DNA from: Phycisphaeraceae bacterium
GTDB taxonomy: Bacteria; Planctomycetota; Phycisphaerae; Phycisphaerales; SM1A02
NCBI GenBank assembly: GCA_019636755.1
Contig: JAHBWZ010000004.1
Location: 124,001-188,000, forward strand
Length of the DNA stretch: 64,000 nt
Reading direction: 5' to 3'
Both the position numbers and the translations under genes were made by a program. Position 1 is the stretch's first letter. Each line of letters opens with the position of its first letter. Of this stretch, positions 6,488 through 10,558 are shown piece by piece. The notes below the pieces were generated by a model. The model was given only the letters and a program-made list of their open reading frames with translations, did no database searches and was not told the DNA's origin.

Positions 6488-7945
6488 CTACTCCAGCAGA
6501 TCGAATCCCATGCGGAGCGAGGATCGATAGCTCCTGATCTCCATCCGGCGCATACCGAGCAGGCCCTCGGCCTGCCGCCAGATCGCCGGATCGACCACCT
6601 TCCGCAACCGTCCATTGCGATCGACCTCGCTTTCGATCCACGCCGAGAGACGCTCGAGGATCGCCCTCCTCGTTCGAATCGTGTCGCCCGGATGCAGTGC
6701 AAAGACGCGATGCCAACTCGCATCCGCAAGTTCACGACGCACTTGATCACGTTCAGACGAGAGTTCGTGGATCGCCTGGTCCAGTGCATCGAGTGCCTGC
6801 GCCGTCAGACTCCCTCGCTCCACCGCCACCTCGGTCAGTTCGCGCAGGACAGGTCCGATGATGTCAAGGCTGTCCGGGTTGTAGATGGCTGGATAGCGCA
6901 TGGAGCGCACACGGTCGTACCAGCGATCCGCGACCGCCTCGCCAAGATGCACGGACGCCAGACTTCCCAGACCGGCGACCATGTCCTGCAGGACGACCTC
7001 ACGCCGGCGATTCACGGCGGTGAACCATCTGCGCCATGCCCGGGACGCCTGATTCCGTGCCTCGCCGGTTCTCGCCGTGTATCTTGAACTCTCCTCCGCG
7101 AGCGAATCAGTCAGCACGTCCCGGGCGACGTCCGCCAGCGCCGCCTCCGCATTGACCCGGAGCGTTCGAACTCGCGCAAGCAGCGGATCCTCCGGCATGC
7201 GCCCGGGGCCTGCGAGTGCGGCGCGCCATGGCTCGAACTCCCCACCGGGCCCGGAGGCGGCGTCCAGAAGGCCCACGATGTCCGGCCTGTCCTGCGCGCG
7301 ATCCGCGGTCGCCATTCGGGCGCGCATCCGCCGCTCATGATCCGTCTCGGAGAGGGCGAACACGTTCAACTGGAATCGATGGCGTGCCTCCTCTTCCCAG
7401 CACGCCCGCTGCTCATCGCTCAGGACCTCGGTGATCCGTTCGAGCATGGCCGCCCGACGCGGCGGCTCAAGCGCCGCCTGCAACTCGATGCGCTGAACAT
7501 CCGCCTCCGCCATCGCCCGATGAAAGATGCGCATGTACTCTCCCCCCAGTGTGTGCGCAATCGACATTGCCGGCGCGACCGGGCTTGGCGAAGCTCCGTC
7601 GCCATGGATCGGCGGCTGCACCAGGTACGCCTTCTGCGCAACGACATAGGCAGGGCGGGCATCCTCGGGCAGATGATCAAGGGTTGCCCCAGGGCGCAAC
7701 TCCGGAAATGCATCAAGCATGCGGCGCTGCAGATCCACGATCCACTCCCGCTCCAACCGGACAAGTCCCGGTCCGACTTCCTGCGCATACCGGTCGTAGG
7801 CGAGTCTCAGGAAGCGCTCCTGATCCTCCGAGAGGTGAAGGTCCCGGGCGAGGCGGTCGATCACCTGCGGCGGGTCCGAGTGCCCCGATGGCGATCGGCG
7901 CCGGGCGCCGCCCCGGTCTGTCCGATTCAGCAGGCGCGTGTTCAT
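6488..7945 (-). CDS. Uncharacterised helical protein, last gene of the Cys-rich peptide operon
   Basis: I do not recognise a named family. The 485-residue product is strongly alpha-helical and rich in Arg, Glu and Ala. It has no signal peptide or clear membrane helix from the ATG at 7945 (MNTRLLNRTDR). A TGA overlaps this ATG (ATGA) in the frame in which the broken DUF1573 gene begins, which supports the start and translational coupling. Parts such as RWYDRVRSMRYPAIY resemble [16 protein letters not shown] of the secreted helical protein at 25716-27008, so the two may be distant paralogues. As the fourth gene behind the Cys-rich peptide it may act on regulation, processing or self-protection, but this is inference from position only. 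Confidence 0.65.
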   Translation of the reverse strand: MNTRLLNRTDRGGARRRSPSGHSDPPQVIDRLARDLHLSEDQERFLRLAYDRYAQEVGPGLVRLEREWIVDLQRRMLDAFPELRPGATLDHLPEDARPAYVVAQKAYLVQPPIHGDGASPSPVAPAMSIAHTLGGEYMRIFHRAMAEADVQRIELQAALEPPRRAAMLERITEVLSDEQRACWEEEARHRFQLNVFALSETDHERRMRARMATADRAQDRPDIVGLLDAASGPGGEFEPWRAALAGPGRMPEDPLLARVRTLRVNAEAALADVARDVLTDSLAEESSRYTARTGEARNQASRAWRRWFTAVNRRREVVLQDMVAGLGSLASVHLGEAVADRWYDRVRSMRYPAIYNPDSLDIIGPVLRELTEVAVERGSLTAQALDALDQAIHELSSERDQVRRELADASWHRVFALHPGDTIRTRRAILERLSAWIESEVDRNGRLRKVVDPAIWRQAEGLLGMRRMEIRSYRSSLRMGFDLLE

Positions 7946-8388
7946 ACCCGGATCGCGACGCCGAGGCCAGGTCCGCGTGCACAATCCCGACGATCGGAAC
8001 CTCGACGGCGGCACGGATCGAATCCCCGCCGCCACGAATCGTCACGCCGAGGGTTTCCTCGAAGAGGCCGTCGGGTGCATCATCGACCTGAATGGTCCCC
8101 TGGCGCCACGACCTGCGGATGCACACTCACGATCTCCATGCATGCCGCACACTCCGACCGAGCCGCGAGGATTCGCACCGGTGTGTCATCGCTGTTGCGA
8201 AGCTGCACGGCAAGCCGCGACGACCGTTCGCCGTCGATGGTGCCGATATCCACCCGGCCGCTCTCCAGCCGGTCCAGCGAAAAGACGGGCTCCGTCTCAT
8301 CGGGCAGAGTCCTTGGAGCGATGCCGACGGCGCACGGTGTCGTTGAGAAGACACACGCGAGGATCGCGGCGACCACTGTGCGGGTCAT
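7942..8388 (-). pseudogene. DUF1573-domain exported protein, frameshifted
   Basis: The ATG at 8388 overlaps the stop of the upstream gene (ATGA). It begins a signal peptide (MTRTVVAAILACVFS) followed by a DUF1573-like stretch: SGRVDIGTIDGERSSRLAVQ, LRNSDDTPVRILAARSECAAC. This frame hits a stop at 8080. The natural continuation (PDGLFEETLGVTI, AAVEVPIVGIV) lies in another frame and joins smoothly if one base is removed from the GGGG run (CCCC at 8097-8100 on the plus strand). A further shift between about 7950 and 7980 would return to the first frame, whose TGA at 7942-7944 overlaps the next gene's ATG. DUF1573 domains are periplasmic Ig-like domains. The break may be real decay or an assembly error. 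Confidence 0.6.
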
Positions 8389-10214: not shown

Positions 10215-10252
10215 GACTTCGCCTTTCTCATGCGCCTCTCTTGCGCCCGGCG

Positions 10253-10558
10253 TCATGCATCGGGGCATGGCGGATCTTCTCCGGTCGGTGGCTTCTCCTG
10301 ATGCACGACACCATTGCACGGAGCCACCGAGTACCACCAGTCATTCAGACATCTGCCGCTGGCCCAATAGCAGTCCCCATACTGACGGTACCCGCATCCG
10401 TTCGGGACCACATCCAGTCGGATTCTTTGAATCGCTTGCGAGAGTGCTTGCACGCTCCACTGGTCCAACTGGCCCACCGCGACAGGGACGCCCTGGATGA
10501 CCGCGACCATCGTGACCGCCAGTGCCGCCGCGCCGCAAATACGCCGTCCCGTCCGCAT
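10253..10558 (-). CDS. Small secreted Cys-rich peptide precursor
   Basis: The 101-residue product has a signal peptide (about 1-28, ending PVAVGQ) and a mature part of about 72 residues with five Cys (55, 63, 70, 81, 98) and many aromatics (GCGYRQYGDCYWASG, then CLNDWWYSVAPC). The ATG at 10558 is chosen because AGGAG lies 8 bases upstream and the preceding codons look non-coding. No known bacteriocin family is obvious. Its small size, export signal, paired Cys and a C39-like peptidase gene 38 bases downstream make a processed secreted peptide (bacteriocin, toxin or signal) a reasonable inference. A run of 15 G lies 86-100 bases upstream of the start. Confidence 0.6.
   Translation of the reverse strand: MRTGRRICGAAALAVTMVAVIQGVPVAVGQLDQWSVQALSQAIQRIRLDVVPNGCGYRQYGDCYWASGRCLNDWWYSVAPCNGVVHQEKPPTGEDPPCPDA

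Follow-up and report, generated by a model that had tools for sequence, protein, structure and literature searches.

How is a small, cysteine-rich (Cys-rich) peptide with an export signal expressed in Phycisphaeraceae bacterium (assembly GCA_019636755.1), and do the genes beside it serve its maturation? The question is raised by a compact operon at positions 6488 to 10558, on the minus strand, of a 64,000-nucleotide (nt) stretch of contig JAHBWZ010000004.1, called here the window; the host genome comprises 4.11 Mb in 20 contigs. A preliminary description took the operon for four intact genes and proposed a distinct maturation system built around a periplasmic C39-like peptidase. The analysis points instead to the DNA upstream of the peptide gene. 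With a probability of roughly 0.6, the locus is a partly decayed member of a set of dispersed cassettes whose exported Cys-rich proteins are switched by a homopolymer in the promoter.

The homopolymer promoter and its cassettes

Upstream of the peptide gene, consensus hexamers enclose a run of fifteen G (G15; other runs are written likewise), the order being TTGACA, T, G15, AAG and TATGGT. The preliminary description had missed this putative promoter, as well as a second copy of the operon on contig C17 and a C39-type frame elsewhere in the genome. The promoter consists of the following parts.

10660..10665, minus strand: -35 element TTGACA, read from the sequence and also present before other cassettes
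10644..10658, minus strand: G15 homopolymer in the promoter spacer (spacer 19 nt), read from the sequence
10635..10640, minus strand: -10 element TATGGT, with AGTATGGTGCCCG shared with the C17 copy

The G15 tract is the longest single-base run in the window, where the next longest is 8. In the C17 copy, which stands at a contig end, G39 is followed by CAGTATGGTGCCCG. The 19-nt spacer of the window copy would be suboptimal, and the loss of two G would bring it to 17 nt.

Twelve dispersed cassettes of this kind are found in the genome: two of type A, four of type B (one partial), three of type C (one without a start codon) and one each of types D, E and G. Genes were called from the GC content of third codon positions and the length of open reading frames (ORFs), and export was called by a crude hydropathy rule. 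A run of at least eight G precedes 11 of the 12 cassettes, each has an exported Cys-rich protein or its remnant, and most have a helical exported neighbour. The element common to them is the homopolymer promoter together with an exported Cys-rich protein. Lengths of proteins are given in amino acids (aa).

A1: the window operon, G15
A2: contig C17, G39 at the contig end
B1 and B2: contig C12, G12 and G11
B3: G8, spacer 11, peptide broken
B4: contig C12 near 271 kb, ordinary spacer (TTGACC-16-TAAATT), no tract
Cassettes C1 and C2: contig C1, TTGCGT and G10 each; C2 without ATG
Cassette C3: contig C20, G19-A-C14
D: contig C16, G12; a 289-aa protein that is Cys-rich in its C-terminal part; a helical neighbour was not seen
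E: end of contig C12, G50
G: contig C15 near 75 kb, G8, spacer 13

Tracts stand before paralogous and unrelated Cys-rich cassettes alike, and their lengths differ among paralogues: G15 and G39 in type A, G12, G11 and G8 in type B, G10, G10 and G19 in type C, and G12 and G15 in genome G571. Cassettes B1 and B2 are identical upstream as far as TTGACACTT, after which one has G12 and the other G11. The peptides of types B and C share eight invariant Cys on alignment, and among 151 genomes searched their family was found in its own genome only.

Sequencing or assembly (two-colour chemistry, collapsed repeats) might be thought to have produced such runs, given that several contigs end in polyG and that contig C20 holds a G19-A-C14 palindrome. 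However, the window tract is internal, with promoter sequence on both sides, C17 repeats its downstream side, and other genomes show this arrangement of promoter and polyG as well; an artefact is very improbable. The ends of contigs C1, C3, C6, C10, C11, C12, C17 and C18 lie in, or within 20-30 bases of, runs of G17-56. At the ends of C11 and C3 the upstream half of a cassette-type promoter is seen, and the assembly may break at further such tracts. Genome-wide, 28 ends of runs of at least ten G (G10+) were counted, 23 on the minus strand and 5 on the plus strand. The run inside the promoter of cassette C3 (L085:11968-12001, contig C20) reads G14-T-C19, or G19-A-C14 on the other strand, and is possibly an assembly artefact; the same contig carries closely similar exported genes in tandem about 2.5 kb apart (L085:709-1527 and L085:3199-3987).

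The promoter pattern across genomes

The placing of tracts between promoter hexamers exceeds expectation. In this genome, 4 of the 20 G10+ tracts with both flanks present lie between TTGAC and TAnnnT, compared with 0 of 569 displaced flank pairs and a rate of 1.7e-4 per tract expected from base composition (p 4e-12). The G8 pattern gave 7 matches here and none in the reversed control; across 121 genomes it gave 41 matches in 18 genomes, the reversed control giving 3. The G10 pattern was found 42 times (about 37 without overlapping alternatives) in 24 of 392 genomes of the phylum, and once in the control. Spacers of 16-19 nt account for 68% of the 37 G10+ promoters and for 24% of simulated ones.

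Similarly, the genes behind these promoters differ from the background, a set of 69 genes from the window and from two stretches neighbouring it, predicted with a somewhat different gene caller that missed the window peptide. The first ORF is exported behind 23 of 35 G10+ promoters and in 19 of the 69 background genes (Fisher p 3e-4). At 9 of the 35, one of the first two ORFs is both Cys-rich and exported, compared with none of the 69 genes (Fisher p 3e-5), an automatic count that misses some peptides recognised by eye (L142) and includes L115, scored automatically only. Two further controls are imperfect: of 2984 random starts in the same loci, 6.3% were Cys-rich and 14% exported, and ten promoters of ordinary appearance yielded one Cys-rich and two exported cases.

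In a genome of the same order (G125), a Cys-rich exported peptide is encoded in the operon behind each of the four promoters found with the G8 pattern. These operons also encode a membrane-anchored exported protein and a pseudopilin, and two encode MauE; the pseudopilins were called by eye, with N_methyl just below the cut-off in the two that were scanned. The operon of genome G116 contains MauE, a Cys-rich peptide, an exported protein and a pseudopilin (N_methyl above the cut-off), and in genomes G632, G596 and G631 the first two ORFs include exported ones with 14-16 Cys. At locus L236, by eye, MauE is followed by a Cys-rich ORF. Overall, MauE exceeds its Pfam cut-off in five polyG operons and DUF1573 in one. 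The exported partners compared across genomes (the N-terminal part of the window protein, the four G125 proteins and those of the C12 end and of C15) show no convincing homology by BLAST or hhalign, the exceptions being one pair of G125 proteins and the pair of A copies. A Hydrogenedentota metagenome-assembled genome has a polyG promoter (L237:4300; G11, spacer 17) in front of an open frame that spans 664 aa or more, is called as exported and contains 57 Cys.

Among named genomes, a Cys-rich exported ORF lies by the promoter in 3 of 9 Planctomycetota loci and in 2 of 53 others (p 0.019); the comparison covers 62 of the 80 listed loci, as 18 had less than 600 nt downstream, and counts L272 as Planctomycetota (same locus as L207). 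Inspection by eye adds a fourth Planctomycetota case, L265, in which DUF1573 above cut-off is followed by a 126-aa ORF with 10 Cys. The named-genome and phylum scans are not fully independent, because L239 repeats L201. On these small numbers, the promoter type looks general and its pairing with Cys-rich peptides looks typical of planctomycetes. An origin of the promoter type restricted to the phylum was considered and rejected, many phyla being among the matches listed.

In the switched-cassette reading, the cassettes would make Sec-exported, Cys-rich and probably disulfide-bonded small proteins, usually with larger exported partners, and nearly all would depend on a sigma-70-type promoter with a spacer that consists largely of a G run. 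Slippage at the run would alter the distance between the -35 and -10 elements and so raise, lower or abolish expression of the cassette in individual cells, and the outcome would be a population with mixed exported Cys-rich proteins. In type A, the peptide may be trimmed or otherwise handled, once exported, by the accessory proteins (a DUF1573-helical fusion and a membrane-anchored C39-like protein), and MauE and the pseudopilins of other genomes are candidate handling factors.

Several results weigh against this reading. Within the genome, B4 carries promoter-like sequence without a tract, the G8 promoter at C14:298198 is followed by a 548-aa protein of another kind than those of the Cys-rich cassettes, and A2 and E are assembled on the downstream side only. 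Tract lengths are unreliable at contig ends, several of which are polyG. Of the 35 G10+ promoters (this genome included), 26 lack a Cys-rich ORF by the automatic call. The pattern of G8 and TAnnnT, with no -35 element required, matched 15 times (11 places) in this genome, a modest excess over the 6 matches in the reversed control. C8 spacers matched 21 times in relatives, compared with 2 in the control, and not at all in this genome. In named genomes, polyG-spacer promoters (G11) occur in many phyla, at no fewer than 119 loci, 80 of them listed, and the first ORF is exported in 37 of 54 loci of other phyla and in 7 of 8 of Planctomycetota (L272 being placed here among the others), so export is not special to Planctomycetota. 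Since polyC spacers exceed the control and polyG spacers in many phyla also lead exported ORFs, part of the signal is not specific. The suggestion of slippage draws on the comparison of paralogues. Finally, the window copy may be silent, because it is damaged (see below) and its 19-nt spacer is suboptimal.

The excess of polyC spacers, the spread of polyG spacers over many phyla and the tractless B4 would all suit a rival explanation, in which the G runs of these GC-rich promoters are no switches but neutral or fixed (DNA shape, G-rich drift) and the cassettes encode ordinary exported proteins. However, a run of 10-17 G is more than a spacer requires, the paralogues B1 and B2 have tracts of unequal length despite their shared upstream sequence, and the tie to exported genes (23 of 35 first ORFs, 19 of 69 genes) argues against neutrality, so this explanation is considered improbable. 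Promoters with polyC spacers of 8-13 bases in relatives include those at G047:C15:38058 and G050:C1:306495.

The damaged operon and its C39-like domain

The genes of the window operon are as follows (lengths of DNA in base pairs, bp).

10253..10558, minus strand: exported Cys-rich peptide (P0001), 101 aa, from ORF reading
8385..10214, minus strand: exported membrane protein (P0002), 609 aa, with a C39-like C-terminal part, from ORF reading
8475..8942, minus strand: C39-like domain, about residues 425-580 (Cys442, His527, Asp544), from profile, model and sequence
8080..8388, minus strand: truncated DUF1573-like ORF, 102 aa, cut at about 8097, the site of 671 bp present in C17
7944..8099, minus strand: out-of-frame remnant of the DUF1573-like gene (GTIQVDDAPDG...), matching the C17 protein past the gap
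6488..7945, minus strand: helical protein, 485 aa, corresponding to the C-terminal half of an 890-aa ORF of C17

Much of the preliminary description agrees with this layout. The peptide is Cys-rich (five Cys after the signal, counted by eye) and has a Sec-like start, the three residues named for the 609-aa protein are present, the stop-start overlap at 8385/8388 exists, and no gene for an ATP-binding cassette (ABC) exporter lies within the operon. The four genes are not all intact, however. The DUF1573 frame from 8388 stops at 8080-8082 after 102 codons, and the overlap described at 7942/7945 does not join two intact genes, as the frame 8388-7942 is not open. Pfam matches to DUF1573 (PF07610) stay under the curated cut-off of 26.1 bits, both in the window ORF (E 0.0047, 17.4 bits) and in the 890-aa ORF of C17 (E 2.7e-5, 24.5 bits), and the window gene is broken. 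At E 1, Pfam gives no family for the 609-aa protein or its C17 counterpart, and none for the peptide; the other proteins of the operon have sub-threshold Pfam matches only, and none of its proteins has a match in NCBIfam.

The damage becomes visible by comparison with the end of contig C17, which holds the one other copy of the 609-aa protein gene in the genome. This copy encodes a 164-aa peptide, a 687-aa C39-like protein and the 890-aa ORF, in which DUF1573-like and helical parts are fused. The expectation that homologous operons keep the peptide gene is borne out by this one homologous operon. The two copies share 75% DNA identity across 4177 aligned bases, and the window copy is missing segments of 189, 108 and 126 bp in frame and of 671 and 107 bp out of frame, some of them flanked by short direct repeats. 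The window peptide is thereby without 63 aa found in the C17 peptide (189 bp, at about 10466), and the 609-aa protein is without 36 and 42 aa; the 671-bp gap falls in the DUF1573-like gene at about 8097 and the 107-bp gap in the helical gene at about 7874.

From this alignment, the window operon looks like a decaying copy, or else C17 may carry insertions. That the window copy is a pseudogene cluster without present function, and C17 the working copy, comes close to an even chance. The five missing segments, two of them out of frame, and the direct repeats at some borders speak for it, whereas the reading frame is maintained across three of the five gaps, neither the peptide ORF nor the C39-like ORF is interrupted, Cys, His and Asp are retained, and the gaps could reflect insertions in C17 instead of losses in the window. 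Relatives of the 609-aa protein were not found among 60 related genomes or, by peptide patterns, in named genomes; 301 genomes of the order (own included) gave one marginal match outside its own genome (E 9.8e-4). No relatives of the C17 C39-like protein were found in plasmids, and the 101-aa peptide has weak matches in ten other genomes (E 0.01-0.09). About 1 kb past the C17 cassette lies a 427-aa ORF that by eye resembles an IS256/Mutator-type transposase (L021:5191-6474). Elsewhere in the window, a 598-aa ORF (2933-4729, minus strand) by eye has signal-peptidase-like motifs (GFVIPTGSMAPTL) and a large insertion.

The C39-like fold is moderately supported. By hhalign, the two copies match a set of 27 C39 domains of related genomes (from 30 loci, three partial ones excluded) with P 9.2e-5 and a probability of 59% over 105 columns, and 0 of 200 column shuffles did as well. 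His aligns with His and Asp with Asp; the Cys falls outside the local alignment and was assigned by eye. Segments of the 609-aa protein that start before residue 350 score at most 13.4 against C39, whereas those starting at 351, 401 and 451 score 15.3, 19.1 and 29.0, and the aligned pair 31.2. The joint set is needed, as ABC-type domains alone give no match (P 0.38) and the other domains alone a weak one (0.014). AlphaFold was unusable on the full 609-aa protein, with a mean predicted local distance difference test (pLDDT) of 33, and on the domain alone (two sequences) gave pLDDT 44 and a predicted template modelling score of 0.41, which is weak evidence. Among PDB entries, Foldseek ranks a papain-like toxin pair, PCAT1, 6mpz and ComA highest for this low-confidence model, with a best E of 0.011 and no match at 0.001, and the best VIA Z scores of the model are 6.1 (CcbD) and 5.8 (PCAT1), in the range the tool calls common. 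Cys442, His527 and Asp544 are conserved in the C17 copy. The oxyanion Gln, expected six residues before the Cys, is replaced by Ala436 in the window protein; its absence is not decisive for activity, because the substitution Q26A in CvaB is reported to have minimal effect on secretion (PMC3335142).

The domain forms the C-terminal part of the 609-aa protein, where Pfam finds no ATPase. It probably faces the periplasm, as proposed before, judging from hydrophobic stretches at 354-372 and 395-413, the Arg-rich loop between them and a presumed N-terminal signal. This topology is an inference from hydropathy, because three further stretches reach the threshold, at 212-230, 436-454 (around Cys442) and 540-558.

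A distinct maturation system, in which the periplasmic C39-like peptidase trims the secreted peptide, is doubtful. The profile match, the Cys, His and Asp in both copies, the papain-like and C39 structures matched by the model, the Arg-rich loop between two hydrophobic stretches and the peptide gene retained in the paralogue favour it. However, there is no Pfam C39 match, Ala replaces the oxyanion Gln, the model has pLDDT 44, the topology is uncertain and only two sequences are known. A double-Gly leader is also missing: the window peptide has no GG, and the only GG of the C17 peptide is near its C terminus. The C39-like gene occurs in the two A-type cassettes only, and the protein is an accessory rather than a maturation core, because just 2 of the 12 Cys-rich cassettes have it.

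Known systems and biological meaning

The switched-cassette reading has a parallel in Neisseria, whose phase-variable genes porA, fetA and opc are reported to carry an unstable homopolymer between the -35 and -10 elements, likewise before genes for exposed proteins (PMC2791445). The present tracts differ in belonging to environmental Planctomycetota, in preceding many dispersed Cys-rich cassettes, and in having been compared between paralogues only. The C39-like domain shares the order of Cys, His and Asp and a weak profile and fold similarity with the C39 domains of PCAT/AMS exporters (PCAT1, ComA, CvaB). Unlike these, the window protein is not fused to an ABC exporter, is probably periplasmic and has no oxyanion Gln; unlike C39 substrates, the peptide has a Sec-like signal. 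The C39-type frame elsewhere in the genome (C19:102565, 821-aa open frame) reaches PF03412 with E 8.7e-33. Open frames of about 250-400 aa from other members of this taxonomic order resemble the window protein in that they contain a C39-type domain yet have no room for an ABC exporter, but those reach PF03412, whereas the window protein has no Pfam match and is joined to an exported membrane part.

Small peptide genes with MauE, as in the polyG operons of other genomes, are reported among candidate clusters for ribosomally synthesized and post-translationally modified peptides in Streptomyces (decRiPPter, PMC7794033), where MauE is speculated to help form disulfides. In contrast to those clusters as reported, no MauE is seen in the window and C17 operons, the promoters are homopolymer-spaced, and the peptides look Sec-exported. 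Such promoters or cassettes were not found in titles and abstract openings, with partial coverage, of the Planctomycetes literature on phase variation or repeats, DUF1573, Cys-rich or C39 proteins, and MauE or pseudopilins.

Most likely, the product would be a disulfide-bonded factor, either secreted or exposed at the cell surface, that experiences diversifying pressure. It might be used against phages, competitors or predators, as an antagonist, an adhesin or a decoy for phages or predators. More tentatively, and at somewhat less than even odds, Planctomycetota may own a modular, phase-variable repertoire in which helpers that can replace one another (MauE, DUF1573, a periplasmic C39-like protein, a pseudopilin, a membrane-anchored exported partner) accompany a fast-diverging exported Cys-rich protein, so that cells differ in the sets they make.

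Phase variation seems to have been studied mostly in host-associated bacteria. If the promoters switch, environmental Planctomycetota would apply this trick to exported Cys-rich proteins, and the sets displayed or secreted would vary from cell to cell, as do the surface antigens of pathogens, but in free-living bacteria. The role, be it phage escape, antagonism, defence against predation or adhesion, would then be testable, and the tracts would flag genes under such selection. They would also give a first handle on orphan exported proteins that come with MauE, DUF1573, C39-like and pseudopilin helpers.

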